Source: Stappia indica (GTDB taxonomy: Bacteria > Pseudomonadota > Alphaproteobacteria > Rhizobiales > Stappiaceae). From it: a stretch of DNA of 64,000 nt. This document shows positions 3,396-21,335 of this stretch, piece by piece (position 1 is the stretch's first letter; every line of letters begins with the position of its first letter). Below the pieces are notes generated by a model. It ran no database searches. It was not told where the DNA came from and worked only from the letters and a program-made list of their open reading frames with translations. The position numbers and the translations under genes were made by a program. The stretch spans positions 5,051,001-5,115,000 of the forward strand of contig NZ_CP046908.1 of NCBI RefSeq assembly GCF_009789575.1, in the 5' to 3' direction.

Positions 3396-4475
3396 TCAGG
3401 TGCCTTTGCGACTGACGTTTCGCGGTCCGGCAAGGGCCGGAAGCAGCGTGCCGGGCGCAGGCAGGAACGGCGCGAGATCGGCCGGCGTGAAGCGGTGCGT
3501 GTGGGCTAGCGTCCAGGCCGGGCGGCGGTCGCGGTCGATCATCGCGGCGCGGATGCCCTCAGTGAAATCCGGGTGGATCAGGAGCTGCGAGACCACGGCA
3601 TATTCGAACCCGAGCGCGGCCTCCAGGCTGCCCTGCCGGCGGGCATGGGCGAGCGCCCCCAAGGTCAGGGCGAGCGCCAGCGGCGAGGCCTTGAGGAGGG
3701 AGCGGGCCGCACGCGCGCAAGCCTCGCCGCCGCTATCCAACCGGGCGAGGATCTCCGGCACGTCGGGGGCGGCGAAGGCGTGTTCCAGCTCCGGCGCGAA
3801 ACCGGGCAGGGCGGGGGCAGCAGTGCTTTCCGGCAGGGAGGCGGGCAGGGCGGCGATGCCTTGCGCGCACAGCGCCTCCGTCAGCTCCGGCAGGTCGGCC
3901 GAGGCGATGCGCCGCCGCAGGAGCCCCAGCGAGACGGCGGCCTCCGCGCCGAGTTTTTCGCCGGTGAGCGCGATGAAGGCGGCGAGCGGAGCGGGAAGGT
4001 CGGAGAGAAGATGCGAGGCGCCCGAATCCGGGATCCAGCCGATGCCGCATTCCGGCATGGCGAAGCTCGCCCGCTCGCTGGCGACCGGGTGGCTGGCGTG
4101 GAGCGCCAGACCCAGCCCGCCGCCCATGGCGACGCCGTCGATCAGCGCGACGACGGGTTTCGGGTAGCGCGCCAGGGCAAGGTCGAGACGGTATTCGGCA
4201 AGGCAGTGGCCGCGCGCGCCGTCGATATCGCCCTGAACCATTCGGCCATGCACGGCGGCAATGTCGCCGCCGGCGCAAAAGGCCCGCCCGCCGACCGCAT
4301 CCATGACGACGAGCTCAATGGCCGGATCGGCGCGCCAGTCGTGAAGGGCCGAGGCGATGCCGGAGAGCATCGCCTCGCTCAGCATGTTGAGGGCGCGGGG
4401 ACGGTTCAGCGTGATCCGCCCGGCGCGGCCTTGTCGCCGCACGAGGAATTCGCCGTCCGGCGACGCGGCGCTCAA
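3396..4475 (-). CDS. enoyl-CoA hydratase/isomerase family protein, 3-hydroxyisobutyryl-CoA hydrolase type
   Basis: About 359 residues, the length of 3-hydroxyisobutyryl-CoA hydrolases rather than ordinary crotonases (about 260). Crotonase features are plain: Phe-Cys-Ala-Gly-Gly-Asp near residue 66-71 and Met-Gly-Gly-Gly-Leu-Gly at 117-122 form the oxyanion hole. Glu142 and Asp150, eight residues apart in a Met-Pro-Glu-x(4)-Trp-Ile-Pro-Asp context, match the HIBCH catalytic pair. The most likely start is a TTG whose first bases overlap the TGA of the upstream KAS III gene, implying translational coupling; a GTG 11 codons in is the alternative. The family hydrolyses 3-hydroxyisobutyryl-CoA in valine breakdown, but in this cluster it may act on a carrier-protein or CoA intermediate. 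This is the last gene of the tight minus-strand operon. Confidence 0.78.
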   Translation of the reverse strand: MSAASPDGEFLVRRQGRAGRITLNRPRALNMLSEAMLSGIASALHDWRADPAIELVVMDAVGGRAFCAGGDIAAVHGRMVQGDIDGARGHCLAEYRLDLALARYPKPVVALIDGVAMGGGLGLALHASHPVASERASFAMPECGIGWIPDSGASHLLSDLPAPLAAFIALTGEKLGAEAAVSLGLLRRRIASADLPELTEALCAQGIAALPASLPESTAAPALPGFAPELEHAFAAPDVPEILARLDSGGEACARAARSLLKASPLALALTLGALAHARRQGSLEAALGFEYAVVSQLLIHPDFTEGIRAAMIDRDRRPAWTLAHTHRFTPADLAPFLPAPGTLLPALAGPRNVSRKGT

Positions 4476-5482
4476 TGGTGGATGAGGGCCGCCGACCAGG
4501 CGAAGCCCGCGCCATTGGAGACGACCATCACCTTGTCGCCGGTGCGGATCAGGTTCTGCTCCACCGCTTCCGCATAGTTGATGACCATGTCGCTTTCCTG
4601 CACATGGCCGCGATGCTTCAGCGCGCTGGTGTAGACCTTCTCCGGGGAGAGGCCGAACTTCTTCATGAAATAGGCCTGATCCCAGGTCGAGAAGGTCGGA
4701 TAGACGTAATAGTCGACGTCGTCGAAGCTGAGGTTCAGCTTGTCGAGCAGCTGGGTCATCACCTTGCCGAACATGCGGAAATTGATCGGGATGACGCCCT
4801 CGTTGAACTTGTCCATCTTGGCGTACATGTGCAGCAGCCGCTCGGTGACTTCCTCGTTCGGCTGGCGGTTCTGCAGGCCCGGCACGTACCACACGTCGTG
4901 CAGCCGGCCGATGGAGATGGTCTCCACGCCGAGGATGCGGGCGCGGGCCGCGTTCTTGCGCAGCACCAGGGCGCTGCCGCCGTCGCTCGCCACCGTGATC
5001 GGGTAGTAGGTCTTGTTGAGATCCGGCGTGCGGTCGCCGGCGAAGAGCAGCGCCGTCGTGACGTCGTCGTCGGCCAGCATCAAGGAGACGACGGTCTTCA
5101 GCGCCAGGTGGTAGCTGGCGCAGCCGCCGGTGTTGACGGCGGTGGCGAAGGCATTTTCCAACCCCAGCTCCTGCTGCACCAGGCCGGCGGCCGACCAGGT
5201 CGGCCCGACATAATCCTCCGGGATCGAGGTGAAGTCGACGACGAGGTCGACCTCGCCGGGTGCGACGCCGGCCTGGTCGAGGGCGCGGCGCGCGGCCGCG
5301 ATGGCCAGCACTGAAGGCAGCTCGTCGGTGACATGGATGTCGTGAATGCCGATGTCGCGCTGGAAGTCGATGTTCTTCGACAAGGTGCCGAAGGGCACGT
5401 CCTCGTCGCGGAACACGTCCGCCACCAGCTTCTTGCCGGGCGGAAGGTAGAAGGCTTCGGAAAGGATGCCGACGTGGTCCAT
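4472..5482 (-). CDS. KAS III (FabH)-like condensing enzyme/acyltransferase, Cys-containing subunit
   Basis: A 336-residue thiolase-fold protein of the 3-oxoacyl-ACP synthase III family. Cys121 (Asn-Thr-Gly-Gly-Cys-Ala-Ser) occupies the nucleophile position, and the C terminus has the usual Gly-Ala-Gly-Phe-Ala-Trp-Ser motif. Aligned by eye with E. coli FabH, the catalytic His of the HQAN motif is replaced by Pro262, while the catalytic Asn (Gly-Asn-Thr) position is His293 in a Gly-His-Val-Gln-Glu-Ser-Asp motif. The canonical Cys-His-Asn triad is therefore not conserved, recalling non-canonical KAS III relatives such as CerJ, DpsC or PqsBC that transfer acyl groups or work as heterodimers. It lies 14 bases after its paralogue (5497-6501). 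The start at 5482 follows GGGGAG. The substrate is unknown. Confidence 0.8.
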   Translation of the reverse strand: MDHVGILSEAFYLPPGKKLVADVFRDEDVPFGTLSKNIDFQRDIGIHDIHVTDELPSVLAIAAARRALDQAGVAPGEVDLVVDFTSIPEDYVGPTWSAAGLVQQELGLENAFATAVNTGGCASYHLALKTVVSLMLADDDVTTALLFAGDRTPDLNKTYYPITVASDGGSALVLRKNAARARILGVETISIGRLHDVWYVPGLQNRQPNEEVTERLLHMYAKMDKFNEGVIPINFRMFGKVMTQLLDKLNLSFDDVDYYVYPTFSTWDQAYFMKKFGLSPEKVYTSALKHRGHVQESDMVINYAEAVEQNLIRTGDKVMVVSNGAGFAWSAALIHH

Positions 5483-5496
5483 CTGGATCTCCCCTG

Positions 5497-6501
5497 TCAG
5501 TATTGCAGCAAGGTGGCGCCGTAGAGGAAGCCGTGGCCATGGGTGGCCAGCAGCACATGGGTGCCGGCGGGCGGTGCCTCTTCCTCCAGCTCCAGCATGT
5601 TGAGGACGAGGTCCGAGGCATGCAGGTGCCCGCGCGCGGCAAAGCCCGCCGGCACCAGCCGCTCGCCGGCGCCAAGGCTGTCGCCGACCGCCTGCGCGTC
5701 CGAGGCGGAGATGTTGGCGGTGATGGTGCGGGAAATGTCGCCGGCCGAGAGCCCGTGCCGGGCGAGCAGCTTGTCGACCAGTCCCTTGAGCTCACTGGTG
5801 CGGTCGGCGCGCGCGTGCTTGGCCGCATCCAGCGTCAGCCGGTAGAGGTCGAGCCGGGTCGGGTGCTTCATGCCGCCGCCGGGAATGTTGAGGACGTCGT
5901 GCAGCGCGCCGTTGGAGCGCATGGCGGTGCCGAGGATCCGGGCGCGGCCCGCGCCGCGCGCGACGATGACGGCGCTGGCGCCGTCGCCCAGCACGGTGAG
6001 CGGGGCGTCCTTGCCGGCGATCACCCGGTTGCCGGAAATCGCCTGGTCGGAGGCCACCAGCAGCACCCGGTGCACGTCGTCATTGGCGAGGATCAGCGCG
6101 CGGGCGAACTTGATCGCCGCATGCAGGTTCGACGAATGGCCGCCGCTATAGCCGAGGGTGAAGGCGCGCTTGGCGCCGAGTTCGGCCTGCAGCTCGTTGC
6201 TCATCGACCAGGCCGGCTCGACATAGCGCTGCGGCATCATCGAGAAGTCGATGATGGCATCGAGGTCGAGCGGGGTGAGGCCCGCCGTCTCCAGCACCTT
6301 GCGCGACACGGCAACGGCCATGTCCGTCGGGCTCTCGCCTTCGAAGACATGGACGCTGTCGATGCCGAGCCGCCCGGCGGCGGTGACGTCGACGGGTCCC
6401 GTCTCGCGGGCGATGATCTCGTCGAGCGGGCTGGTGCGCTCGGGCAGGTAATGGGCGGCCGCAAGCAGACCGACGGGTTCCGTAACGCTTTCGCGGGTCA
6501 T
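5497..6501 (-). CDS. KAS III (FabH)-like paralogue lacking the active-site Cys (His122 instead)
   Basis: A 334-residue paralogue of the downstream gene with the same KAS III architecture. Where that protein has Gly-Gly-Cys, this one has Gly-Gly-His122-Ser-Ser, so the nucleophile is missing. The His of HQAN is replaced by Ile (Ile-Thr-Ala-Asn), but the Gly-His292-Leu-His-Ala-Ser-Asp297 motif shared with the partner is kept. A Cys-plus-Cys-less pair side by side suggests a heterodimer in which this subunit is structural or binds the second substrate, as described for PqsB in PqsBC; this is inference. The start at 6501 has AGGAG upstream. A 151-base gap containing a stem-loop separates it from the radical SAM gene. 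Confidence 0.78.
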   Translation of the reverse strand: MTRESVTEPVGLLAAAHYLPERTSPLDEIIARETGPVDVTAAGRLGIDSVHVFEGESPTDMAVAVSRKVLETAGLTPLDLDAIIDFSMMPQRYVEPAWSMSNELQAELGAKRAFTLGYSGGHSSNLHAAIKFARALILANDDVHRVLLVASDQAISGNRVIAGKDAPLTVLGDGASAVIVARGAGRARILGTAMRSNGALHDVLNIPGGGMKHPTRLDLYRLTLDAAKHARADRTSELKGLVDKLLARHGLSAGDISRTITANISASDAQAVGDSLGAGERLVPAGFAARGHLHASDLVLNMLELEEEAPPAGTHVLLATHGHGFLYGATLLQY

Positions 6502-6550
6502 GGGATCCGGCTCCTGGCTGGGAGAGAAGGGCGCGCCGCCCGGTCTCCCG

Positions 6551-6584: not shown

Positions 6585-6652
6585 GTCGGGCAGGGCGGCG
6601 CGGCCGATAGGGGGTGCCGAGCCGCTCAGGCGGCCCTTCGGAAGTGCACCGC

Positions 6653-8374
6653 TCAGGCGGCGCGTGCCGCCCCGGTGCAGGCCTCGATGATCTCCGCCGG
6701 CACCGTGTGGTCGTCGTACCAGCGGCCCGACAGCGGCTTCTTCACCAGCGCGACATCGGCCGCGTAGGAGAGGATCTCGTCGTTGTGCCGGCCGATCTCC
6801 TGGCGCAGCGAGGCGGACAGGCCGCCGTCGAGCTCGTAGGCCCGGTCGACGGAGCCCGTGAGGTAGCGCAGGTGGTCGATGCGGTCGTTGACGATTCCGA
6901 TCGAGCGCTTGGTCATGCGGCCGAACTCCGCCTTGTCGTTGGCCATGACCTGCATCGCCTCGTACATGCTGGGCAGGAACTCGTCGCGCTTCATCCACTT
7001 GGTCTCGTAGTTCATCGCATCGCGCCAGCGCGGCTGGGTGAGCGACTTGCGATGGGACTCAAGATCGCGGTGGAACACCGTGTAGCCGTGCTCCTCCGGC
7101 TGCTCGAACCACTGGCAGCCCGGGTCGAGGAACGGCACCATGCCGAAGATCGTCGGGATCACCTTGTCGTTGGGGAAGCGCTGCATCAGCCGGCGCGAAT
7201 AGGCGACGGTCTCCATCACCGAGGCATGGGTCTGCTTCGGCATGCCGATCGTGTACCAGAGGTAGAAGCCCTTGATGCCGACATCGAGCGCGGCGGCGAT
7301 CCAGTCCTCCATCTCCTCGTTGGTATAGGTGCCGCGCCCGGTCAGCCGGCTGATCTCCACGTCGTGCGACTGCGGCGACAGGTTGATGTAGATGTCGAGA
7401 TCGGGTGCGACCTCGGCCATCTGCTTGAGCACGGAGGGCTTGGTCAGGCGGAACTGCTCGAAGGAGACCGAGCTGACGACGCCGCTGTCGTTGACCGCCT
7501 CCAGGTAGGAGAGCAGGCGCGGGGCGGATTCCGAATAGGCCTGCAGCGTGTAGACGCTGAGCGGGGACTCGGTCTTGGGGAAGGTGGTGATCTCCCGCGC
7601 CAGCTGCTCCGAGCGGCGGTGGAAGACGGTCTTCTTCTCCACGTTCATCATCCGCTGATAGGCCCAGCGCGAGCCCGAGCACCAGCCGCAGCTCTGCTGG
7701 CAGCCGGTGTTCGGCAGCACCATCAGGTTGGGCATGTTCAGCAGGTTGTCGGTCTTGGGGAACATCTTCGACCAGTCGATCGCCACGTCGTTGAGCACGT
7801 CGGGCGTGTAGGAATGGCCGTTGTCGACGACCTCCCCCTTGTCCTTGTAGACCATGTTCTCGACGTCGAGGCGCCCGCGCACGCCGCGCTTCAGCTGGCC
7901 GACGAGGTCCGCCAGCGGCTCCAGCGTGTCGTAGCCGCGGATGACGCCGTCGATCTGCGGGTACTGCATCATCTCGCGGGCATAATAGGTGGAGACGATG
8001 CCGCCGAAGACGACGAAGCTCTCCGGGTGCACCTTCTTCAGCACCCCGGCTACCTCGATGGAGCCCTGGCAGTGGGGCAGCCAGTGCAGGTCGATGCCGA
8101 AGGCCGGCGCGTCGAGATACTGGAACAGCTTCTCCACGTCGAGCGTGGGGTGCTTCAGCATCAGCGATGCCAGGTTGACGATCTTCACGTCCAGCCCGCG
8201 CTCGGCAAGAAAGCTCTTGATCGACAGGAAGCCGAGCGGGTGCATCTCGAAGATCGGGGTGACGTTGCTGCTCTCCTGGCTGGAATACCAGCCGAGCACG
8301 AAGTCGTCCCGGTTGCGGAAGTCGAAGATCGCCGGTGCATGGACCAGGATCAGGTCGGCCTTGATGCGTGTCAT
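6653..8374 (-). CDS. cobalamin-binding-domain radical SAM enzyme (CloN6-like architecture)
   Basis: A 573-residue protein. Residues 1-190 form a B12-binding Rossmann-like region with segments such as His-Pro-Leu-Gly-Phe-Leu-Ser-Ile-Lys and Phe-Gly-Gly-Ile-Val-Ser. The radical SAM core starts with Cys225-x3-Cys229-x2-Cys232 for the 4Fe-4S cluster. I see no Asp-x-His-x2-Gly cobalamin-ligand motif, which is common in this class. Members include methyltransferases acting on unactivated carbons, such as CloN6 on a pyrrole in clorobiocin biosynthesis, as well as non-methylating enzymes. The start at 8374 is the first Met of the conserved region; the longer open frame to 8800 overlaps the carrier-protein gene. 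It lies 47 bases downstream of that gene, so it probably shares its transcript and may act on a carrier-bound substrate. Confidence 0.82.
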   Translation of the reverse strand: MTRIKADLILVHAPAIFDFRNRDDFVLGWYSSQESSNVTPIFEMHPLGFLSIKSFLAERGLDVKIVNLASLMLKHPTLDVEKLFQYLDAPAFGIDLHWLPHCQGSIEVAGVLKKVHPESFVVFGGIVSTYYAREMMQYPQIDGVIRGYDTLEPLADLVGQLKRGVRGRLDVENMVYKDKGEVVDNGHSYTPDVLNDVAIDWSKMFPKTDNLLNMPNLMVLPNTGCQQSCGWCSGSRWAYQRMMNVEKKTVFHRRSEQLAREITTFPKTESPLSVYTLQAYSESAPRLLSYLEAVNDSGVVSSVSFEQFRLTKPSVLKQMAEVAPDLDIYINLSPQSHDVEISRLTGRGTYTNEEMEDWIAAALDVGIKGFYLWYTIGMPKQTHASVMETVAYSRRLMQRFPNDKVIPTIFGMVPFLDPGCQWFEQPEEHGYTVFHRDLESHRKSLTQPRWRDAMNYETKWMKRDEFLPSMYEAMQVMANDKAEFGRMTKRSIGIVNDRIDHLRYLTGSVDRAYELDGGLSASLRQEIGRHNDEILSYAADVALVKKPLSGRWYDDHTVPAEIIEACTGAARAA

Positions 8375-8421
8375 GGTATCGCCATCCCTCGGGTATCTGG
8401 ACGGACGAAGGGCCGGGGCCC

Positions 8422-8694
8422 TTACGCCGCCGCCGACGTGATCTTGCTGTGACAGAAACCGGAGAGCGCGTTCAGCGTCTTGTAGTTCTGCGAGGTGATC
8501 TCGTCCTCGTCGATGGCGATGCCGAATTCCTTTTCCATGTATTCGGTGACCTCGGCGATGCCGAGGGAGTCGAGAATGCCGCTGTCCAGCAGGTTCTCTT
8601 CCGGGTCGATGCCGCCCGAGACGTTCACGCCGGAGTTTTCGATCAGGTAGGCGAGCAGGTTCTTCTGTACGCTCATCAGGTCGGGTGCACTCAC
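8422..8694 (-). CDS. stand-alone acyl/peptidyl carrier protein
   Basis: A 90-residue acidic four-helix protein with the phosphopantetheine-attachment motif Leu-Asp-Ser43-Leu-Gly. The surrounding Asn-Leu-Leu-Asp-Ser-Gly-Ile-Leu-Asp-Ser-Leu and the later Ile-Thr-Ser-Gln-Asn-Tyr-Lys-Thr-Leu resemble freestanding PCP/D-alanyl-carrier-type proteins (PltL/CloN5 style) more than fatty-acid ACP. The start is GTG at 8694, preceded by GGAGGAG at ideal spacing; an internal ATG at 8676 is possible. It is the first gene of the minus-strand operon whose promoter lies in the AT-rich gap upstream. The adenylation enzyme at 19.7 kb is the only candidate loading enzyme in the window. Confidence 0.88.
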   Translation of the reverse strand: MSAPDLMSVQKNLLAYLIENSGVNVSGGIDPEENLLDSGILDSLGIAEVTEYMEKEFGIAIDEDEITSQNYKTLNALSGFCHSKITSAAA

Positions 8695-9014: not shown

Positions 9015-10163
9015 CTACAGGCCGAGGGCGCGCGCGGCGATGGTGCGCTGGATGTCCGACGTGCCGGAATAGAGCAGGCTGCCGACCGCATCGCGGAAGT
9101 CACGCTCCACCTCGTAGTCGGCCATGTAGCCGTAGCCGCCATGGATGACGACGGAGTTCTGGCACGAGGCGACCCAGGCCTCGCTGAGATACAGCTTGGC
9201 GAGCGCGGCCTCCATCGGGCAGCTGCCCTTGGTCTTCTTCAGCCAGGCGACCTTGTAGAGCAGCAGCCGCGAGGTCTCGTGCCGCAGCTTCATGTCGACG
9301 ATGCGGTTGGAGACCGACTGGAACTTGCCGATCGGCTTGCGGAACTGGGTACGCTTGTTGGCATGGGCGACGCACTGCTCAACCTGGTGCTCCATGGCGC
9401 CGACCAGGTTGGCGAGGATCGAGCTGCGCTCCCACTCCATCGAGTTGTTGAAGATGCGCCCGCCCTGGCCCTCCTTGCCGATGCGCGCGGTGACCGGTAC
9501 CCGGCAGTCCTCCAGCGTCAGCCAGGCCATCGGCGAGGTGCGCAGGCCCATCTTGCGGCGGTTCGGGCTGATGGTGAGGCCCGGCGTGTCGCGGTCGACG
9601 ATGAAGCCGGTGAGGCCGAGCGAACCGGCACTCTTGTCCACCGTCGCGAAGATGACGAAGACGTCCGCGACCGGCCCGTTGGTGCAGAACACCTTGGCGC
9701 CGTTGAGCACGTAGTGGTCGCCGTCGCGGGTCGCCGTGGTGCCGAGGCTCATCACGTCGGAGCCGGCCTCGGCCTCGGTGATGCCGTGGGCGCCGATCAG
9801 CTCGCCGGCAATCAGCCCGCGCAGGTACTTGTCCTTCTGCTCCGGCGTGCCGAACTGGGCGATCGGCATCTGCACGGTCCACATCTGGCCGTTCATGCTG
9901 AACAGCAGGCCGTTGTCGCGGCAGCCGTAGCCGAGCGCCTCCATGGCCAGCACCGTGGTGATGATGTCCTGTTCGGCGCCGCCATAGGCCTTCTCGAAGG
10001 GAAGGCCGAGGATGCCGAAGCCGGCGATCTTGCGCCACAGGTCGCGGGACAGGATGCACTCGGCATCGCGCTGCTTGAGGTCGCCCTCGTTGAGCTCGTC
10101 CTTGGCGAAGCGGACGACCTTCTCCTTGAAGGCCTCCTGCTCGGGAGTGAAGCTGAAGTCCAT
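9015..10163 (-). CDS. acyl-CoA dehydrogenase-fold flavoenzyme, probably acting on a carrier-protein substrate (prolyl-PCP dehydrogenase-like)
   Basis: A 382-residue acyl-CoA dehydrogenase family protein with Thr-Glu-Ala-Glu-Ala-Gly-Ser-Asp near 129-136 and the C-terminal Gly-Thr-Ser-Asp-Ile-Gln FAD region. The Glu that serves as base in MCAD-type enzymes is Ser366 here (Tyr-Ser-Gly-Thr). An acidic residue, Glu245 in Met-Glu-Trp-Glu-Arg, sits where isovaleryl-CoA dehydrogenase and the prolyl-PCP oxidases (RedW, PigA, PltE, CloN3) have theirs. The Phe-Gln-Ser-Val-Ser-Asn-Arg-Ile-Val-Asp-Met-Lys-Leu-Arg stretch is also typical, as I recall it, of those carrier-protein oxidases. With a PCP gene 320 bases downstream and a prolyl-AMP-ligase-like enzyme at 19.7 kb, oxidation of a PCP-bound amino acid is the favoured role. 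An ordinary acyl-CoA substrate remains possible. Confidence 0.78.
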   Translation of the reverse strand: MDFSFTPEQEAFKEKVVRFAKDELNEGDLKQRDAECILSRDLWRKIAGFGILGLPFEKAYGGAEQDIITTVLAMEALGYGCRDNGLLFSMNGQMWTVQMPIAQFGTPEQKDKYLRGLIAGELIGAHGITEAEAGSDVMSLGTTATRDGDHYVLNGAKVFCTNGPVADVFVIFATVDKSAGSLGLTGFIVDRDTPGLTISPNRRKMGLRTSPMAWLTLEDCRVPVTARIGKEGQGGRIFNNSMEWERSSILANLVGAMEHQVEQCVAHANKRTQFRKPIGKFQSVSNRIVDMKLRHETSRLLLYKVAWLKKTKGSCPMEAALAKLYLSEAWVASCQNSVVIHGGYGYMADYEVERDFRDAVGSLLYSGTSDIQRTIAARALGL

Positions 10164-10702
10164 CTGCGCTCCTCGTGGTCAGGTCATGGGTCTGGCGGCG
10201 GCGTCGGTCCGTCGGGCGGACGAAGGCCGCAGGCTCGGATCACCGGCCGGACGAGGCTTGCGGGATTTGCGCGGACGTCCGGCTGGTGGTTGGATGGCGG
10301 GGGCAGGTTTCGCCGGGCGGGACGGCGGCATCGGACGGTGGGCGAAGGCATGGCTTCGCCGCTGTCCGGGGCCGGAAACATCCCCTGACGAAAAATTCAT
10401 TGATAATAGTGACAGTGATCTTGTAGGGAGGTTTATTCTTTGGCGGAGCTCAAATTCGAACTCTTCGCGTCATTGATACGAAATACATATGCCATAAGGT
10501 CCTCCCGTTTTCGTGATCTCTGCATTGGAACTCGATTTCGTTTATTGCATGGACTCCTGAAACGAGAAACTAATTTTAATTACAACCACAATACAACTTT
10601 CCGTTCGTGTCGAGAAATATATATTTTTGCCATATAAAGGTTTGCGTTCGAATTTTTGGGGACAGCAAAAATCGGCCAATCCTAGGGAGCAGAAGGCAAG
10701 CA
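10164..10702 (+). other. intergenic promoter region between the dehydrogenase and the LysR gene
   Basis: 539 bases between two divergent genes. The part nearest the dehydrogenase is GC-rich; 10380-10690 is AT-rich and contains stop codons in all useful frames. I see no convincing small gene, RNA gene or strong palindrome. This is the natural place for divergent promoters and for LysR autoregulatory sites. Confidence 0.4.
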
Positions 10703-11749: not shown

Positions 11750-12128
11750 CGCGGGGACGTCCCTTTCCGCATCATCGAACGCAAACACGAGGATCGGCGC
11801 CGGCTTGGGAGGGCTGGCGCCGCTGCCGTCCCGGCATGTCCGGGACCCCGTCCTGCGGCAGCGATTAAGTCATAAAACGACCTAATACCGCATGACAAAT
11901 ATATTTCTGAAATGAAAGGCGAGGCGATACCGTCGCCGGAAAGCTGACGGGCACACCTTCTGCGGACACGAAACAGCGTGGGATTTTAGGCGGTTGCGCC
12001 ACTCTCCCGAGGCTGCTCGCGAACGTCCGGAAAGGCCGGCCGTGTCCGTCTGGATCGGGAGGCGGCCTGCGTGACGGGCCGGACAGGCGGCGGACCGGCG
12101 CCGCGCGCGTTTCCAGGGAGGACTGCGG
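11750..12128 (+). other. intergenic region upstream of ilvD
   Basis: 379 bases without a gene. A short AT-rich stretch at about 11865-11920 is the likely ilvD promoter. I see no leader-peptide run of Ile/Val/Leu codons, T-box or terminator-antiterminator pair. Confidence 0.4.
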
Positions 12129-13802: not shown

Positions 13803-14241
13803 CGGCGCCTCGGTCGCCTCACGGCGGGACGGCGGGCGGGCCTTGCCCGTCCCGCGTGGGGCAAGGCGCAATGAGACGAGATAGGGCGGAACGGCGATCC
13901 GGTCGGAACGCAGCCCGCTCTATGCCCGTCCGGCAGCCAGCACCATCCGGTTGATGGGGGGACGGTGCCGGAGGCTGGACGGGCAGGCTTTTCGACCCGC
14001 CGGAGCGGGCCGGCGAGACTCGTTCGGGATCAGGATCAGCGAGGTCTGGCCAGGATGCCAGACTGTCAGCCGGGATCGGAAGATCCCGGCCGCTGGCGTT
14101 TGTGCGTACCGCTTTCCAACTCCCAAGATCCGCGTCGCAATAGTCACAAGAAATAGAAAAATAGAATTAGACCGGCTCAAGGCCGTTTCCTATCCTCGAC
14201 TTACAATCGAATAGAATAATATTCGCTTGAGGAGGGGAATT
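13803..14241 (+). other. intergenic region with two inverted repeats before the TRAP operon
   Basis: 439 bases without a gene. GCGGGACGG (13824-13832) pairs with CCGTCCCGC (13847-13855) just after ilvD but lacks a T-run, so it is at best a weak terminator. A longer imperfect inverted repeat has TGCCCGTCC (13923-13931) facing GGACGGGCA (13977-13985) with further partial pairing inside. The last 110 bases turn AT-rich and probably hold the TRAP promoter. Confidence 0.45.
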
Positions 14242-15423
14242 ATGTCGGCTGGAGAGTGTTGTTGTTGCTTCCATGGCGTAAGTAACGAAACGGAGGGGCC
14301 GGCAGTTTCCCTGCGCGCGAAAAAGAAATCGTCGCACGGCGCCCGGCAGGGGCGTGCGCGGTCGCTGCTGCTGGCCGGTGCCATGGCGCTGGCGCTGGTT
14401 CCCGGCCTTGCTGCCCCGGCAGAGGCCGCCAGCTACACCATGACGATCGCGCATCTCTATCCGGACGATCTCACCAACAACGAGACCGCGCCGGCCCTCA
14501 AGCATTTCGAACAGCTGGTCGAGAGCGCCACGGGCGGCGACATCGACGTGCAGATCTTCGGCAACGGCGCCCTCGGCGGCGAAGTTGAGGCCGCGCAGCA
14601 GACCCGCGCCGGCAAGACCATCCAGTCGGTCATGCTGGGCTCGGGGACGCAGGCCTCCTTCTACCGCAATTACGAGATGATCACCTCGCCGTTCCTGTTC
14701 CCCGACTACCGGACGGCCTGGACCTTCTTCGACAGCCCCTGGTTCGCCGAGTTCATGAAGCCGATGGTCCAGGAAAGCGGCTTGCGCTACCTCGGCACGC
14801 TGGACGATGGCGGCGGCTTCGTCGCCTTTGCCAACAACAAGCGGCTGATCACCAAGGTCGAGGACCTGAAGGGTCTGCGCATCCGCGTGGAGGAAAACCA
14901 GGCGCACATGACGATCATGCGCGCGCTCGGCGCCTCGCCGACGCCGCTGCCCTGGGGCGAGCTGCAGACCGGCCTCGCCACCGGCCTCGTCGACGGCCAT
15001 TTCCATGCGCCGGGCGTCAACGACATCTTCAAGTTCTACGACGTGACCGATTTCACCACCTGGAGCGGCCACGTCTACAACACCATCACCTGGAGCGTCA
15101 GCGAGGCCTGGTTCTCGCAGCTGCCCGACGAGTACAAGAAGATCATCATCACCTCCGCCCGCGAGGCGGTGGCGATGGCGCATGGCATCGCCGCGCAGAT
15201 CACCGTCATCGGCTGGGTGAACTCCTGCAAGAAGTTCGAGCAGTGCCACATCCTCTCCGACGACCAGAAGCAGCGCATGCGCGACATCTCGCAGCCGATC
15301 TATCGCGAATGGCTGGTGGCGGAGTTCGGCGAGAAGGCCGCGCTCTACGACGACCTGCGCGCCGAAGTCTCGCGCATTCATGACGAGCTGAACCGTTCCG
15401 CCGTCGAGCTCTATCTCGACTGA
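14242..15423 (+). CDS. TRAP transporter substrate-binding protein (DctP family)
   Basis: A 393-residue periplasmic solute receptor. After a long N-terminal region (about 40 residues including four consecutive Cys codons) comes a signal peptide with the core Leu-Leu-Leu-Ala-Gly-Ala-Met-Ala-Leu-Ala-Leu and an Ala-Glu-Ala-Ala cleavage area. The mature DctP fold begins Tyr-Thr-Met-Thr-Ile-Ala-His-Leu-Tyr-Pro. The Arg in Leu-Arg-Ile-Arg-Val near residue 220 is the usual carboxylate-binding region. The start at 14242 has GAGGAGGGGAATT directly upstream; a TTG 15 bases earlier lies in that site. The ligand is unknown, though DctP proteins usually bind organic acids. Operon partners follow at 15542 and 16252. 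Confidence 0.88.
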   Translation: MSAGECCCCFHGVSNETEGPAVSLRAKKKSSHGARQGRARSLLLAGAMALALVPGLAAPAEAASYTMTIAHLYPDDLTNNETAPALKHFEQLVESATGGDIDVQIFGNGALGGEVEAAQQTRAGKTIQSVMLGSGTQASFYRNYEMITSPFLFPDYRTAWTFFDSPWFAEFMKPMVQESGLRYLGTLDDGGGFVAFANNKRLITKVEDLKGLRIRVEENQAHMTIMRALGASPTPLPWGELQTGLATGLVDGHFHAPGVNDIFKFYDVTDFTTWSGHVYNTITWSVSEAWFSQLPDEYKKIIITSAREAVAMAHGIAAQITVIGWVNSCKKFEQCHILSDDQKQRMRDISQPIYREWLVAEFGEKAALYDDLRAEVSRIHDELNRSAVELYLD

Positions 15424-15541
15424 CGCGGATGGCAGGCGGCGACGGGGCGTGTCCGGCCGCCGCCTGCCTCTCGCGGACGCGCGCAAGCCCCGTTCAAGAC
15501 ATCGCCCCAGGACATCGCCCCAGCCGACCGGGACCGAACCC

Positions 15542-16255
15542 ATGAGCACGATTACCTCCATCGGGCCGGGAGCGCTGCTTGGCGCCCTGCGCCGGGTCAG
15601 CGACACGGTCAACCGTGCGACCATCGTCGTCTGCGCGGTCCTGCTTGCCGTGATGCTGCTCGTCTCGGCGGCCGGCATCGTGCTGGAGCTGGGCCTGGCG
15701 CTGGCGGCGCGGTTTGGCCATGCCTCGCTGTTCGACAGCGGGCCGCTCGCCTTCGCCTATGCCAACACCCGTCCGTCGCTGTTCCGCCTGTTCCTGCCCT
15801 GGCTCGGCATGCTCAGCATCACCGTGGCGTTCAAGTATGGCGAGCACATCGCCATCCTCGCCGTGGCGCGGCGGCTGCCCCGCTGGGCCGCGCGCCTGGC
15901 GCAGGCGGTGAACCTTGCCGCCATCGGCCTCTTCGCCCTGGCGCTGCTGTGGTACGGCTTCGGCTTCTTCCGCGAGGCGACCAACCTCTACATCATCTCC
16001 CCCAGCCTGCAGGTGGCGCATCACTGGACGGCGGCCTCCGTGCCGGTGGCCGGCGCGATCCTGTGCCTGCACCTCGTCGACGGCATGGCCCTGCTGGAAG
16101 AGCGCGGCGCGATCAGCGCGGCTGCCGAGGAGGTCGAGGCGGCGGAAGCGGAGCTGGAGTTCGGCGACGGGCCGCCGACGGTCGCGGGCGATCCGGGCAC
16201 AACCGACACGGCCGGACCGGCGCCGGCGCGCCGCATCGCGGAGGCCGCGGGATGA
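15542..16255 (+). CDS. TRAP transporter small membrane subunit (DctQ family)
   Basis: 237 residues with about four hydrophobic segments and an acidic, Ala/Glu/Pro-rich cytoplasmic tail of about 60 residues. Size, position between DctP and DctM, and the segment Phe-Lys-Tyr-Gly-Glu-His-Ile identify it as the DctQ subunit, which pairs with DctM in Na+-driven uptake. It is somewhat longer than usual because of the tail. The start at 15542 is the only Met before the first membrane segment. Its stop overlaps the DctM start (ATGA). Confidence 0.85.
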   Translation: MSTITSIGPGALLGALRRVSDTVNRATIVVCAVLLAVMLLVSAAGIVLELGLALAARFGHASLFDSGPLAFAYANTRPSLFRLFLPWLGMLSITVAFKYGEHIAILAVARRLPRWAARLAQAVNLAAIGLFALALLWYGFGFFREATNLYIISPSLQVAHHWTAASVPVAGAILCLHLVDGMALLEERGAISAAAEEVEAAEAELEFGDGPPTVAGDPGTTDTAGPAPARRIAEAAG

Positions 16256-17535
16256 GCGCCTCCATCGCCTTCATCGTGCTGATGTTCATCGGCCTGCCGC
16301 TCGGCCTGGTGCTGACGGCCGCCGGCATGGTCGGCGCCTATTCCATCGGCGGGGCGGATTTCCTCGGCATCCTCGCCGACCGCTTCTACTCCGGCGTGTC
16401 GGGCTACGTGCTGATCGCCGTGCCCTATTTCATCATCACCGCCGAGATCATGAACCGCGCCGGGCTGACCGAGCGGTTGATCGCCTTCGCCAGCTCGCTG
16501 TTCGGCCGGGTGCCGGGCGCGCTGTCCCATGTCAACGTCACCACCTGCCTGATGTTCGCCGGGCTGACGGGCGCTGCGGTGACCGAGACGGCGGCGATCG
16601 GGCGCACGCTCATCCCCTCCATGCGCAAGGAGGGCTACAGCGCCGCCTATTGCGCCGCCGTCACCGCCTGCTCGGCCATCGTCGGGCCGATCATCCCGCC
16701 CAGCATCATCATGATCGCCTATGCGGCGACGCTGCGCGATATCTCGATCCTCGGCCTGTTCGCCGCCGGCATCGTGCCGGGGCTGATGATGGGCTTCGCC
16801 ATGCTGGTCGTCAGCGGCATCATCTCGTGGAAGCGCGGCTATGCCAGCCACCAGCGGGTGATGCTCTCGGTGATCGTCTCGACCGGCCTCAGCGCGCTGG
16901 CGGCGATGGGCATTCCGCTGGTCATCCTCGGCGGCGTGCTGAGCGGCGTGACCACGGTGACCGAGGCCTCGGTGATCGCCTGCATCTACGCGCTGGTGCT
17001 CGGGGGCTTTGCCTATCGCCGGCTCAGCCGGCAGGACCTGTGGGAGTCGCTCGTCTCCACCGTCAGCTTCAGCGGCGTGGTGTTCCTGCTGCTCGGCGCG
17101 TCCAACGTGCTCGGCTGGTTCGTCACCCGCTCCGGTATCGCCCGCCATGCGGCCGAGACCATCGCCAGCATGAGCGACAATCCGGTGGTGCAGATCCTCG
17201 CGGTCGCAGCGCTGCTCATCGTCATCGGCATGTTCATCGACGTGCTGCCGGCGATCATCATCGCCGTGCCGGTGCTCGCCCCGGCCCTGGTCGAGCTCGG
17301 CTTCCACCCGCTGCATGCGGGCATGGTGATGCTGCTGGCGCTCAACCTCGGCAACATCACCCCGCCCGTCGGCCTGACCCTGATGACGGCGGCGCGAATA
17401 GCCAACGCCCCATACGAAAGCGCGGTGCGCGAGTCGCTGCCCTTCGCCGCCGCCCATGTGGTGATCGTGGTGCTGTGCGCGCTGTTCCCCGCCATCACGC
17501 TCATGGTGCCGCGCATGTTCGCAGTCGGCATGTAG
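16252..17535 (+). CDS. TRAP transporter large membrane subunit (DctM family)
   Basis: 427 residues, about 12 membrane segments, with DctM hallmarks such as Gly-Pro-Ile-Ile-Pro-Pro-Ser-Ile-Ile-Met-Ile near residue 142 and Asn-Leu-Gly-Asn-Ile-Thr-Pro-Pro-Val-Gly in the second half, the two pseudo-symmetric substrate/Na+ sites. It is translationally coupled to DctQ. It moves the DctP-delivered substrate across the inner membrane. Confidence 0.92.
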   Translation: MSASIAFIVLMFIGLPLGLVLTAAGMVGAYSIGGADFLGILADRFYSGVSGYVLIAVPYFIITAEIMNRAGLTERLIAFASSLFGRVPGALSHVNVTTCLMFAGLTGAAVTETAAIGRTLIPSMRKEGYSAAYCAAVTACSAIVGPIIPPSIIMIAYAATLRDISILGLFAAGIVPGLMMGFAMLVVSGIISWKRGYASHQRVMLSVIVSTGLSALAAMGIPLVILGGVLSGVTTVTEASVIACIYALVLGGFAYRRLSRQDLWESLVSTVSFSGVVFLLLGASNVLGWFVTRSGIARHAAETIASMSDNPVVQILAVAALLIVIGMFIDVLPAIIIAVPVLAPALVELGFHPLHAGMVMLLALNLGNITPPVGLTLMTAARIANAPYESAVRESLPFAAAHVVIVVLCALFPAITLMVPRMFAVGM

Positions 17536-17578
17536 GCGCCGTTCCCTTTCGACAACCGTCACACAGAGAGTGAAGACC

Positions 17579-18256
17579 ATGACCAAGGATCAATCGGTGG
17601 AGCGGCTCACGGCAGTGCTGCAGAAGATCGCGGCGGCGGAGGAAGTGCGCGAGGGCAATCCCGGCCCGGTGACGCTGGTCGCCGTCTCCAAGACCTTCGA
17701 CGCGGACGCGATCCGCCCGGTGATTGCCGCAGGGGCCCGCGTGTTCGGCGAGAACAAGGTGCAGGAGGCGCAGGAGAAGTGGCCGGCGCTGAAGGCCGAG
17801 TATCCCGACATCGAGCTGCGCCTGCTGGGGCCGCTGCAGTCCAACAAGGCGAAGGACGCGGTCGCGCTGTTCGACGTGATTGAGTCCGTCGACCGGGAGA
17901 AGATCGCCGCCGAGATCTCGCGCGAGATCGCCCGCCAGGGCCGCAGCCCGCGCCTCTATGTGCAGGTGAACACCGGCCGCGAGCCGCAGAAGGCCGGCAT
18001 CGACCCCGACGAGGCCATCGCCTTCGTCGAGCGCTGCCGCGACGTGCACGGGCTGACCATCGAGGGGCTGATGTGCATTCCCCCCGCAGGCGAGGACCCC
18101 GCGCCGCATTTCGAGCTGCTGGCCGCGCTCGCCGACAAGGCGGGCCTTGCCCGCCGCTCCATGGGCATGTCCGGCGACTACGAGAAGGCGGTGATCTACG
18201 GCGCCACCAGCGTGCGCGTCGGCTCGGCCATCTTCGGCGCCCGGACCTATGCCTGA
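17579..18256 (+). CDS. yggS: YggS/PLPBP-family pyridoxal phosphate homeostasis protein
   Basis: 225 residues with the YggS signature: Lys38 in Val-Ala-Val-Ser-Lys-Thr (PLP Schiff-base Lys), Gly-Glu-Asn-Lys-Val-Gln-Glu, and the C-terminal Ser-Met-Gly-Met-Ser-x-Asp-Tyr-Glu-Lys-Ala and Val-Arg-Val-Gly-Ser-x-Ile-Phe-Gly. The family is a single-domain beta/alpha-barrel that binds PLP and affects B6 and amino-acid pools; no catalytic reaction is established. It starts 43 bases after DctM and is followed closely by the kinase-like gene, so it probably belongs to this transcript. YggS is usually elsewhere (near proC or ftsZ-region genes in many bacteria), which makes the context odd. A GTG at 17570 is an alternative start. 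Confidence 0.88.
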   Translation: MTKDQSVERLTAVLQKIAAAEEVREGNPGPVTLVAVSKTFDADAIRPVIAAGARVFGENKVQEAQEKWPALKAEYPDIELRLLGPLQSNKAKDAVALFDVIESVDREKIAAEISREIARQGRSPRLYVQVNTGREPQKAGIDPDEAIAFVERCRDVHGLTIEGLMCIPPAGEDPAPHFELLAALADKAGLARRSMGMSGDYEKAVIYGATSVRVGSAIFGARTYA

Positions 18257-18292
18257 CCCGGATTTTCCTTTTTGAATTCAGGATCCTACCAG

Positions 18293-19645
18293 ATGAACAT
18301 CAACGCTCACCAGAAGCTGGACTACCGGATCACCCACCAGTTCGACGGTCTGACCATCTCGGATGGCGAGTTCCAGCGCCTGCTCGACATCGCCAGTTGG
18401 AACGGCCACGTGCCGACCTTCACCCGGCGCGGCCGCGGCTCGTGGGAGAGCCTGAACGAGCCCATCGCGCTCAAGGACGATCCCACCGTCACCTTCCACG
18501 CGGCCAAGCTCAAGGGCGTCGGCCTGTGGAACCCGATCCTGCCGGGCGACGCGGAATATTCCAACAAGTTGCATGACGATGCCGGCAACGATCCGGTGCC
18601 GCCGCTGACGGACCTCCTGGAATATCTCGTCACCTATCCGCATTTCGGCATCTCGAACGAGGGAGAGTACAAGTACGCCTACAGCTCGCCGAGCCCGATC
18701 GGCGGCATCGTCCACGAGCGGGCGCATCGCGAGTTCTGGTCGGCCGAGCGGCTGGTGCGCCACGGCGTGCCGACCATCGCGCCGCTGGCGGTGATCGAAT
18801 ACGGCGGCAACCTGACCTTCCAGGGCCAGCCGATGGGCGCGGTGCTGACGCTCTCGCCCGGCTCCGCCTCCTACCGCATCTCGGAGATCCTGTTCGGCGC
18901 CGGCATGGTGCGCGGCAGCGATCCCGTCTTCGACGCCCATTACGACGGCATCCGCGAGGCGCTCGGCGTGGAGGGCGATCCCGACGACGAGCGCGTCCGC
19001 CTCACGGTGATCTGCAAGCTCGCCCGCGAGGCCGGCAAGCTGCTGCACGACTTCTCGCTGGCCGAGCTCTACCGCTATTCCGGCGACTGGGGCAATTTCG
19101 TCTACTCGGTCGAGAGCAAGCGGCTGTTCCTGATCGACCTCGATTCCGTGCAGGACATCAACAATCTGCCGCCGACGGCGAAAGCGATGCAGTCCTGGCG
19201 CGACCTGGCCAGCGCCATCTACCGGATGGTCGGCAAGATCGGCTACCCGACCGCGCTCGGCAAATACACGATCGACAACCTGATGGAGTTCGATCCGATC
19301 GCGGCGAAGATCGCCGGCTATTTCCCGGACGTGCCGGAGGCCGAGATCCGCGCCATCTCCCGCCGCCTGTGGGGCTACTTCATCCCGCATCTGGCGCTGC
19401 TCAACAAGCACCGGGACGACATTCTCGGCGGCTGGGACGGCGACCGGCGCAAGTCCTACAAGATGGACCACGACCTCTTCTACATCCTGGCGCTGACCCT
19501 GCTGCGGCCGCTGTTCGAGCGCAGCGCAGTCGGGCGCAAGTATCCCAGCGACATCACCGACGACGAGATGTGGGGCAAGGCCGAGCGCTTCCTCGGCAAC
19601 CGCTTCCAGTATTTCGCCTGGCTGATGGGCCGGTACGATCTCTGA
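18293..19645 (+). CDS. protein-kinase-like-fold protein of unknown function
   Basis: A 450-residue soluble protein not matched to a named family by eye. Its layout suggests a phosphotransferase fold. There is a possible ATP Lys (Lys72/Lys74 in Ala-Ala-Lys-Leu-Lys-Gly), an Arg-Glu-Phe-Trp-Ser-Ala-Glu-Arg-Leu helix near 146-154 that could give the alphaC Glu, and a catalytic-loop-like stretch His252-Asp-Phe ... Gly-Asp265-Trp-Gly-Asn268. Leu-Ile-Asp282-Leu-Asp284-Ser follows in the DFG-like metal-binding place. Homologous aminoglycoside/HipA-type enzymes read His-x-Asp...Asn...Asp in the same spacing. It lies between yggS and the adenylation enzyme, so phosphorylation of a small molecule in that pathway is possible. 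The start at 18293 has CAGGA upstream. Confidence 0.6.
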   Translation: MNINAHQKLDYRITHQFDGLTISDGEFQRLLDIASWNGHVPTFTRRGRGSWESLNEPIALKDDPTVTFHAAKLKGVGLWNPILPGDAEYSNKLHDDAGNDPVPPLTDLLEYLVTYPHFGISNEGEYKYAYSSPSPIGGIVHERAHREFWSAERLVRHGVPTIAPLAVIEYGGNLTFQGQPMGAVLTLSPGSASYRISEILFGAGMVRGSDPVFDAHYDGIREALGVEGDPDDERVRLTVICKLAREAGKLLHDFSLAELYRYSGDWGNFVYSVESKRLFLIDLDSVQDINNLPPTAKAMQSWRDLASAIYRMVGKIGYPTALGKYTIDNLMEFDPIAAKIAGYFPDVPEAEIRAISRRLWGYFIPHLALLNKHRDDILGGWDGDRRKSYKMDHDLFYILALTLLRPLFERSAVGRKYPSDITDDEMWGKAERFLGNRFQYFAWLMGRYDL

Positions 19646-19691
19646 AGCAATTCCAGGAAAAGTGGGAACCGGTTTTCCGTCCGAAATTGCG
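19646..19691. repeat. intergenic palindromic repeat (type I associate with Rhizobiales)
   Basis: An imperfect palindrome starting at the stop codon of the kinase-like gene: AGCAATTCCAGGAAAA faces TTTTCCGTCCGAAATTGCG. From memory, near-identical sequences occur many times between genes in Rhizobiales genomes. It may fold into an RNA hairpin and weaken transcription into the adenylation gene. Only one copy is recognised in this window. Confidence 0.6.
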
Positions 19692-19718
19692 TGAAAACAA
19701 AGGGACAGGAGTACGACG

Positions 19719-21335
19719 ATGGCGCGCATCATTCCGCGGCTGCTCGAGGCGATGGCACGGCAGGCACCGGAGGCTGCCGCCATCGTCTTCGAGGACACGA
19801 CCTGGACGCGGGCGGAGCTGCAGGATTTCGCCGCCCGCGTTGCCCGCACCCTGCATGCCGGCGGCGTGCGCCGCGACGACCGGGTCGCGGTGTGGCTCGA
19901 CAAGTCGCCGGAGGCGGTCGGCGCGCTGCTCGGCGTGATGATGGCCGACGCGATCTGCGTGCCGCTCGACCCGACCGGGCCGGCGCCGCGCCTTGCCGGC
20001 ATCCTCAAGGACTGCGAGCCGTCGATGCTCGTCTCCTCGGCCAACAAGGCGAAGCGGCTGGAGGCGCTGGTGGCGGAGGGCTGCGAGCTGCCGCCGGTGC
20101 TGGTAACGGGCGGCGTGCCGCTGGCGCTGTCGCCGGAGGCGCGCGGCATCGCCCCGGTGATGCTGGAGCCCAAAGCTGAGAGCATGGGAGAGGAGAGGGG
20201 CGAGGGGACCGCTCCGCCGCCCTCGCAGGTGATCGACGAGGACCTTGCCTACATCCTCTACACCTCCGGCTCGACCGGAAAGCCGAAGGGCGTGATGATC
20301 AGCCACCGGGCCATCGTCGCCTTCTCCGACTGGGCGGGGGAGTATTTCGCGCTTCACGCGCAGGACCGGGTCGCCTCGCATTCGCCGCTGCATTTCGACC
20401 TGTCGCTGTTCGACGTGTGGACGACGCTGGCGCACGGGGCCTGTGTGCACCTGGTGCCGCAGGGCATCTCCTTCATGGCGACGGACCTGGTGCGCTTCCT
20501 CGCCGAAAGCCGCGTGACGGTGTGGCAGTCGGTCCCGTCCGTGCTACGGATGATCACCCGCCAGCTCGGCGATCCGGGACCGGAGTTCGATCACCTGCGG
20601 CTGATCTTCTTTGCCGGCGAGCCCTATCCGCCGGCGGAGCTGCGCGACCTGATGACCCGCCTGCCGAAGGCGCGCTATCACAACATCTACGGCGCGACGG
20701 AGATCAACGACGTCACCTGCCACGCGCTGACTGGTCTGCCGGACGACGGCCCGCTGCCCATCGGCGTGCCTTGCGCCCATATGGAGGTGCTGGTGCTGGG
20801 CGAGGAGGGCGAGGTCCTGTCGGGGCAAGGCGCCATCGGCGAGCTCTGCGCCCGCGGGCCGACATTGGCGAAGGGCTATTGGGGCGATCCGGCGATGACG
20901 GCGGCGAAGTTCGTGCAGGACCCGCGCCACGACCTCTACCCCGATCCGCTCTACCGCACCGGCGACCTGGTGCGCATCGGTGAGGGCGGCACGCTGCACT
21001 ATGTCGGAAGGCGGGATTCCCAGGTGAAGATCCGCGGCTTCCGCGTCAATATCGGCGAGGTCGAGGAGGCCCTGCTGCGCCACGAGGGCGTCAGCGAGGT
21101 GGCGGTGATCGACGAACTGGACGCGGACGGGACCCGCACGCTGGCCGCCTGCTTCATCGCGCCTGGAGAGGTGCCGGATGCGCGCGCGCTGAAGCGGCAC
21201 TGCCTGGGCTTTCTGCCGAACTACATGGTGCCGGAGCGCTTCGTGCCGGTCGATACCCTGCCGCGCACCTCCACCGGCAAGATCGACCGCCAGGCCCTGC
21301 GCCGGCAGCAGGAGGTGGCGGCACAGCCGGCCTGA
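19719..21335 (+). CDS. stand-alone amino-acid adenylation enzyme (prolyl-AMP ligase-like)
   Basis: 538 residues, a complete ANL adenylation domain without condensation or carrier domains. Core motifs: Tyr-Thr-Ser-Gly-Ser-Thr-Gly-Lys-Pro-Lys-Gly at 181-191, Asn-Ile-Tyr-Gly-Ala-Thr-Glu at 322-328, Tyr-Arg-Thr-Gly-Asp-Leu, and the C-terminal Thr-Ser-Thr-Gly-Lys-Ile-Asp-Arg with the catalytic Lys. The A4 motif His-Phe-Asp-Leu-Ser-Leu-Phe-Asp-Val-Trp (225-234) supplies the Asp that binds the alpha-amino group, so an amino acid is the likely substrate. It resembles the freestanding L-prolyl-PCP ligases of pyrrole pathways (RedM, PigI, PltF, CloN4). A 15-residue acidic insert precedes the P-loop. 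The start has a CAGGAG site. It would load the carrier protein at 8422-8694; this is inference. Confidence 0.82.
   Translation: MARIIPRLLEAMARQAPEAAAIVFEDTTWTRAELQDFAARVARTLHAGGVRRDDRVAVWLDKSPEAVGALLGVMMADAICVPLDPTGPAPRLAGILKDCEPSMLVSSANKAKRLEALVAEGCELPPVLVTGGVPLALSPEARGIAPVMLEPKAESMGEERGEGTAPPPSQVIDEDLAYILYTSGSTGKPKGVMISHRAIVAFSDWAGEYFALHAQDRVASHSPLHFDLSLFDVWTTLAHGACVHLVPQGISFMATDLVRFLAESRVTVWQSVPSVLRMITRQLGDPGPEFDHLRLIFFAGEPYPPAELRDLMTRLPKARYHNIYGATEINDVTCHALTGLPDDGPLPIGVPCAHMEVLVLGEEGEVLSGQGAIGELCARGPTLAKGYWGDPAMTAAKFVQDPRHDLYPDPLYRTGDLVRIGEGGTLHYVGRRDSQVKIRGFRVNIGEVEEALLRHEGVSEVAVIDELDADGTRTLAACFIAPGEVPDARALKRHCLGFLPNYMVPERFVPVDTLPRTSTGKIDRQALRRQQEVAAQPA

Follow-up and report, generated by a model that had tools for sequence, protein, structure and literature searches.

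We analysed a 64,000-nucleotide stretch of the Stappia indica genome (one contig of 5.12 Mb, NZ_CP046908.1; the stretch, positions 5,051,001-5,115,000, is hereafter the window) and found some fourteen genes in two groups, a block that we read as one carrier-protein biosynthetic cluster in which a polar proline-type amino acid would be loaded onto, and processed on, a stand-alone peptidyl carrier protein (PCP). We put the probability of this explanation as a whole at about 0.68. On the minus strand, the genes run in the order acyl-CoA-dehydrogenase-fold enzyme (ACAD), PCP, B12-binding radical S-adenosylmethionine (SAM) enzyme, two proteins resembling ketoacyl synthase III (KAS III), here called KASA and KASB, and a crotonase of the 3-hydroxyisobutyryl-CoA hydrolase (HIBCH) type, followed by a transporter of the major facilitator superfamily (MFS). 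On the plus strand, the order is LysR-type regulator, dihydroxy-acid dehydratase, the DctP, DctQ and DctM components of a tripartite ATP-independent periplasmic (TRAP) transporter, a YggS-family protein, an orphan protein, and a stand-alone adenylation enzyme (Table 1). Genes were identified by matches to Pfam and NCBIfam models, and every gene named in an original prediction, made earlier from the sequence alone, was present. That prediction had placed a split carrier-protein pathway at positions 3396-21335, with its two gene groups facing each other. All of the genes it named lie within this interval except for the MFS gene, which is mostly outside, and the groups are in fact divergent, standing back to back around positions 10164-10702. 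The stretch from 10.7 to 19.6 kb had been passed over, yet it is conserved with both groups.

The two gene groups are one inherited unit. In a set of 14 Stappia genomes, searched with KASB (E 1e-30, within a search of 201 genomes), the adenylation enzyme (E 1e-60), ACAD (E 1e-80), and the dehydratase (E 1e-100), each of the four was found in 12 genomes, always the same 12, and the other two (G009 and G013) contained no match to any of them at these thresholds, the best ACAD there reaching 35-36%. In 11 of the 12, a single contig carried both the KASB and the adenylation match in a span of about 17 kb or less; the adenylation match was divided between two contig ends in G006 and was partial in G001. 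Because these genomes are close relatives, co-occurrence within the genus proves little by itself. Relatives of KASB were also found at ten loci in named genomes, seven from Stappia and one each from a Rhodobacteraceae metagenome-assembled genome (MAG), Mesorhizobium sp. Root554, and a Salinarimonadaceae MAG. Mesorhizobium sp. Root554 carries the block in matching order and orientation, including the genes between the groups (DctQ was not searched for). Identity to the window was 80-82% for ACAD, the radical SAM enzyme and KASB, 85% for the dehydratase, 76% for DctP, and 82% for DctM, followed by the orphan (75%), YggS (72%), LysR (68%), PCP (62%), KASA (57%), the adenylation enzyme (50%), and HIBCH (44%).

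The Salinarimonadaceae MAG has its dehydratase, DctP, DctQ, DctM, YggS, orphan, and ACAD genes in a single-strand run at 5.0-13.1 kb, in which the orphan open reading frame (ORF) ends at 11902 and ACAD starts at 11918. PCP, the radical SAM enzyme, KASA, and KASB (74% identical to the window's copy) stand on the opposite strand of the same contig at about 39.6-43.8 kb, and the adenylation enzyme (48-50%) is on a separate contig, next to a prepilin peptidase gene. Given the Mesorhizobium synteny and this gene run with ACAD, we regard the dehydratase, the TRAP transporter, YggS, and the orphan as part of the pathway. LysR and HIBCH had no match within the MAG stretches examined (the whole MAG genome was not searched for them), and HIBCH, which the original prediction had counted in, may not be a fixed part of the unit. 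Dehydratase and TRAP genes are commonly paired in catabolism, and the block could in principle consist of two unrelated neighbors, a catabolic LysR-dehydratase-TRAP operon and a small biosynthetic operon; we consider this very improbable, because the block is kept in another family, the dehydratase, TRAP, YggS, orphan, and ACAD genes form one run in the MAG, and KASB, adenylation enzyme, ACAD, and dehydratase are jointly without match at threshold in the same two Stappia genomes. The predicted single pathway split over two groups is supported, and the co-occurrence of its adenylation gene with the PCP and KAS genes held in the genus, in Mesorhizobium, and in the MAG. In wider searches, a KASB profile run against 385 genomes of the class, with at most five candidates scored per genome, matched the genome's own copy alone at E 1e-40. 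A tblastn search of a plasmid collection gave no match to KASB, the orphan, or the radical SAM enzyme and four records for the adenylation enzyme, at 40-42%.

The adenylation enzyme passed the amino-acid adenylation model (379 bits against a cut-off of 317), and its best-scoring solved stand-alone relative was PltF, an L-proline ligase (273 bits, covering residues 6-532). With the sequences aligned by their core motifs, the pocket reads DLFQFAIDVK, in which Gln278, Asp330, and Val331 (in what we take to be GrsA numbering) were identical in all seven aligned sequences, a subset of the known orthologues that includes the window's and spans three genera. The L-proline consensus of stand-alone enzymes is reported as L(L/F)YLALVC (PMC3874040). 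The window's pocket, LFQFAIDV, matches this code at three of eight positions, with Gln and Asp replacing Tyr and Val. As a control, we used an adenylation enzyme and ACAD pair from another alphaproteobacterium (G769, L101 7505-10194), whose pocket, DLLYNALVCK, matches at seven of eight; in the 19.9 kb stretch L101, ACAD, the adenylation enzyme and, weakly, the PCP are the only parts of the window's block that find a match. As aligned, the adenylation pocket is therefore different from the stand-alone L-proline code. By order of the code, we equated the Gln and Asp positions with Tyr244 and Val306 of CcbC, which are described as two of three residues whose LmbC counterparts determine the fit of C4-propyl proline, and whose exchange raised the Km of CcbC for L-proline from 0.36 mM to 37 mM (V306G) and 86 mM (V306G with Y244L) (PMC5730197). 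Because polar residues occupy these two substituent-gating positions, a polar substituent on the ring is suggested; the substrate may be a polar proline analogue, with 4-hydroxyproline, the simplest candidate, as our guess. The enzyme also scored 440 bits against LgrA, which we considered as a hint of glycine and rejected; in the Mesorhizobium orthologue, the LgrA score adds up two domains of 223 and 231 bits, each below the 288 bits of PltF.

The ACAD resembles the dehydrogenases that act on carrier-bound proline. Its best match in the PDB was the prolyl-ACP dehydrogenase AnaB (4irn, 434 bits), a further match was the L-prolyl-PCP dehydrogenase 5zw0 (290 bits), and the PigA (416 bits) and RedW (392 bits) models led the next model at 302 bits. 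Glu243 of the motif SMEWER was invariant in all five aligned sequences, one of them that of the control pair, and at what we take to be the position of the usual C-terminal Glu there is a Ser (YSGTS), like in AnaB; the base pattern of prolyl-PCP oxidases named in the original prediction is thus borne out. For AnaB and Bmp3, the base is described to be a conserved catalytic Glu (PMC10849742). Together, the AnaB-type match and the Glu base support a five-ring amino acyl thioester as the substrate. Across 398 genomes of the phylum, the RedW model matched at E 1e-105 in two, our own and that of the control pair, both under the cut-off, and in none of 14 control genomes. The PCP matched the PP-binding family PF00550 at 37.2 bits (cut-off 20.8), and its Ser43 was invariant in six of six aligned sequences.

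The B12-binding radical SAM enzyme scored 392.7 bits with TIGR04190, below the cut-off of 500, and its CxxxCxxC motif was invariant in all five aligned sequences, making it a candidate methylase of the PCP-bound ring. An enzyme of this kind next to KAS III proteins also invites the reading that plain L-proline is converted to pyrrole-2-carboxyl-PCP, methylated in the manner of CloN6, and transferred by a KAS III enzyme in the manner of CloN2, the KAS III-type transferase of the clorobiocin pathway. Methylation has been proposed for CloN6 (PMC10849742), and the plain-proline route further agrees with the closeness of ACAD to AnaB, its best model scores with PigA and RedW, and the standing of PltF as the best-scoring solved stand-alone adenylation enzyme. 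We nevertheless find it rather unlikely, since Tyr is replaced by Gln and Val by Asp at the positions where substitutions made CcbC lose affinity for proline, and since ACAD misses the PigA and RedW cut-offs (500 and 650 bits, respectively). Plain proline loading, the picture of the original prediction, is accordingly weakened.

KASB kept Cys121, His293, and Asp298 in seven of seven aligned sequences, and its best PDB match was DpsC, which we take to be a propionyl-using KAS III. In KASA, the nucleophile position was held by Ser in five of eight sequences, including the window's, and by Cys in three, and His and Asp were kept in all eight; loss of the nucleophile from KASA, which we had considered, was rejected because the joint alignment has Ser or Cys there. 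Catalytic residues Cys113, His296, and Asp301 are given for ChlB3, with a like arrangement in CerJ (PMC9573744), and the catalytic spacing of KASB matches that of ChlB3. KASA and KASB are adjacent, co-conserved paralogues with 33% identity, and these features, along with the PqsBC precedent, speak for a PqsBC-like heterodimer with one catalytic subunit, one form that the two-subunit KAS III originally predicted could take. PqsB is described as being without all three catalytic residues (PMC4807248). We regard a PqsBC-like arrangement as unlikely, since KASA, unlike PqsB, keeps Ser or Cys, His, and Asp throughout, and two homodimers acting one after the other, or a heterodimer in which both subunits are active, would fit better. 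Because KASA keeps the residues that PqsB lost, the simpler reading is that KASA and KASB provide two active centers, perhaps acting in sequence.

The dehydratase scored above the IlvD equivalog cut-off (TIGR00110, 729.4 against 618.15 bits). Another IlvD-like gene of the genome (4,695,864-4,697,573), presumably the housekeeping copy, is 36% and 50% identical to it over two pieces; in three families, a copy at 85-87% identity accompanies the cluster. YggS is likewise a second copy, 63% identical to one at G000:C1:2498708. The orphan had no match in Pfam or NCBIfam, and PDB sequences gave only E 1.9; structure models were too weak to name its fold, with a faint kinase-like signal. An orphan profile run against 397 genomes of the order, with at most four candidates scored per genome, gave four matches, all in its own genus, and the protein was also found in three further genus loci, in Mesorhizobium, and in the Salinarimonadaceae MAG. 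In Mesorhizobium sp. Root554, LysR and ACAD are separated by an extra, distant TRAP set (28% and 35%; L060 2489-5322).

One reading of the extra dehydratase is that it is a self-resistance copy in an AstD-like role, the product being an inhibitor of branched-chain amino acid synthesis. It is a true IlvD by model and differs clearly from the other IlvD-like gene of the genome, it travels with the cluster through three families and shares one gene run with ACAD in the MAG, and there is precedent in aspterric acid, a fungal product whose discovery is described as proceeding via a self-resistance copy (PMC11528067). The dehydratase may instead feed the pathway with 2-oxoisovalerate or another 2-oxo acid, and the second YggS and the TRAP transporter suggest precursor handling equally well; we therefore hold self-resistance to be a tentative and somewhat unlikely reading. 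In the MAG, a methylmalonate-semialdehyde dehydrogenase gene stands just before the dehydratase (L114 3154-4836; 655 bits, cut-off 448.5). This gene and HIBCH hint at valine-derived acyl units, which the dehydratase, HIBCH, and semialdehyde dehydrogenase could handle and the KAS pair could join to the PCP-bound ring; all three enzymes belong to families of valine metabolism, and the match of KASB to DpsC agrees with such a role. We consider this handling of a valine unit doubtful, as the MAG stretches examined gave no HIBCH match, the semialdehyde dehydrogenase lies outside the window's block, and crotonases and aldehyde dehydrogenases are widely recruited.

In the pathway that we propose, the adenylation enzyme would activate a polar-substituted proline-type amino acid, with 4-hydroxyproline as a first guess, and load it onto the PCP. 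ACAD, by its family and catalytic base, would oxidize the PCP-bound ring, and the B12 radical SAM enzyme might methylate or otherwise change it. KASA and KASB, by their nucleophile-His-Asp sets, would remove the acyl group from the PCP and transfer it to, or condense it with, a second unit; HIBCH may trim or release thioesters; and in Stappia, the MFS transporter may export the product. The plus-strand group would supply and control the pathway through the LysR regulator, TRAP uptake of organic acids, the extra dehydratase, the second YggS, and the orphan. A more specific version, in which a hydroxyproline-type amino acid is loaded, oxidized, C-methylated, and released by the KAS pair as an antimetabolite of branched-chain synthesis, with a resistant dehydratase and the second YggS giving protection, seems to us improbable.

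Several observations weigh against the proposed pathway. Outside the genus, the set was found in only one isolate and one MAG, and the adenylation enzyme, KASA, and HIBCH are 44-57% identical to those of Mesorhizobium, compared with 80-85% for ACAD, the radical SAM enzyme, KASB, and the dehydratase; from this faster divergence, substrates could differ between genera. The second PDB match of ACAD was 6cxt, an entry named butyryl-CoA dehydrogenase (320 bits), and ACAD fell under the two pyrrole-pathway cut-offs given above. The best NCBIfam model of the PCP was that of the cispentacin ACP, at 41.6 bits against a cut-off of 80. Finally, the pocket was read from sequence alignment, and 4-hydroxyproline is a guess.

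The cluster is related to known prolyl-PCP and CloN systems and, as originally predicted, differently built. With the pyrrole pathways of prodigiosin, pyoluteorin, and chalkophomycin, it shares a stand-alone adenylation enzyme, a stand-alone PCP, and a prolyl-type ACAD; it differs in its non-proline pocket and in the added radical SAM enzyme, KAS III pair, dehydratase, TRAP transporter, YggS, and orphan. The CloN cassette of clorobiocin and coumermycin, whose methylpyrrole gene content we take to include ACAD, PCP, B12 radical SAM, and KAS III-type genes, is alike by description rather than by sequence, whereas the window has two KAS III-like proteins with differing nucleophiles, HIBCH, the dehydratase, the TRAP transporter, and YggS. 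Of the block's identified genes, none is a prodigiosin partner gene or an aminocoumarin gene, in line with the prediction. AnaB, AnaC, and AnaD carry out the early steps to anatoxin-a; of the solved structures, AnaB is the one nearest to the window's ACAD, but the block has no modular polyketide synthase and the rest of the gene set is unrelated. KASB shares Cys-His-Asp with CerJ and ChlB3 as well as the ChlB3 spacing, and the window's KASA shares a Ser nucleophile with DpsC, differing in that KASA has Ser-His-Asp and DpsC is reported to have Ser-His-His (PMC9573744). Unlike these systems, the window has two neighboring KAS III-like proteins, accompanied by a PCP and a radical SAM enzyme. CcbC and LmbC are stand-alone enzymes of the prolyl lineage, and the choice of ring substituent depends in part on these two pocket positions; in the window, the changes are polar (Gln and Asp) rather than a hydrophobic channel.

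Table 1. Features of the two gene groups and the adjoining oxygenase gene, in window positions
Feature	Position	Strand	Basis or remark
MFS exporter (DHA2-like)	1586-3433	-	Pfam/NCBIfam
HIBCH-like crotonase, putative thioester hydrolase	3396-4475	-	PF16113; PRK05617-type; likely TTG start
KASB, KAS III-like	4472-5482	-	Cys121-His293-Asp298, CerJ/ChlB3-type set and spacing
KASA, KAS III-like	5497-6501	-	Ser at nucleophile position
B12-binding/radical SAM enzyme, TIGR04190-like	6653-8374	-	both domains; CxxxCxxC
Stand-alone PCP, GTG start	8422-8694	-	phosphopantetheine Ser43 in LLDSGILDSLG
ACAD, prolyl-carrier-protein oxidase type (AnaB/PigA-like)	9015-10163	-	Glu243 base
Divergent intergenic region between gene groups, 0.54 kb	10164-10702	no strand	
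LysR-type regulator	10703-11749	+	ORF from 10607; start set by beginning of helix-turn-helix domain
Extra dihydroxy-acid dehydratase (IlvD)	12129-13802	+	IlvD equivalog model
TRAP solute receptor DctP	14227-15423	+	
TRAP transporter DctQ	15449-16255	+	ORF limits
TRAP transporter DctM	15949-17535	+	ORF limits; domain from about 16260
YggS-family pyridoxal phosphate-binding protein, second copy	17570-18256	+	
Orphan cluster protein	18296-19645	+	no Pfam/NCBIfam match
Stand-alone adenylation enzyme	19719-21335	+	pocket DLFQFAIDVK
2-Oxoglutarate/Fe(II) oxygenase, possible accessory	525-1415	+	HxD...H, hydroxylase-type ligands

Within the minus-strand group, HIBCH probably starts with a TTG that overlaps the stop codon of KASB, the gene before it. 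The intergenic region between the groups contained no inverted repeat of at least 12 bases, and promoter and terminator scans returned nothing beyond shuffled sequence.

Two flanking genes are widespread at the genus loci. The MFS gene adjoins 8 of 10 other genus loci, with no orthologue in the Mesorhizobium and MAG loci examined, and the oxygenase gene adjoins 9 of 10, the tenth locus ending before the oxygenase position, with no match in those same Mesorhizobium and MAG loci. The Mesorhizobium locus likewise had no match to the window's FhuF. The oxygenase matched the WelO5 family in Pfam and, weakly, an isoleucine-dioxygenase model. Its HxD ligands His183 and Asp185, together with His266, were present in five of five aligned sequences; the hallmark of a WelO5-type halogenase is, we assume, that the Asp iron ligand is missing (HxG or HxA), and with the Asp ligand present, we rejected assignment as a WelO5 halogenase. 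The oxygenase could supply a hydroxylated substrate.

Other features lie around the block. A tRNA-Cys gene (21419-21492, minus strand) directly follows the adenylation gene, and in Mesorhizobium, a cysteinyl-tRNA synthetase gene directly follows HIBCH (L060 12116-13705); these neighbors possibly mark an insertion site or are a coincidence. Genes for a thiolase-domain protein and an acyl-CoA ligase follow downstream of the block, preceded by an Lrp-type regulator (22237-25013, plus strand), and the Mesorhizobium locus had no thiolase match. Farther on, the window contains a FecCD-type permease gene (33931-34908) and a cobalamin riboswitch (37380-37628, minus strand; Rfam RF00174, 85.5 bits). 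A 99-base tRNA-Gly called by ARAGORN (62168-62266, plus strand), which Rfam did not list at the gathering threshold and which overlaps a long ORF, is probably a false positive.

In the open-license literature, none of the matches listed describes this gene set, as judged by titles and abstract openings. For a Stappia strain, nine antiSMASH clusters are reported, none named there as such a pathway, including one nonribosomal peptide synthetase cluster whose product is given as unknown (PMC12997852). The enzymes are mostly of known kinds; their combination is one that we have not found in print. The cluster bears on whether a prolyl ligase can be redirected to substituted prolines by making two pocket residues polar. 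If the more specific antimetabolite version of the pathway were true, its product would belong to a thiotemplated heterocycle class of which no member has been described, and if the extra dehydratase marks the product's target, the mode of action would be named before the product is known.

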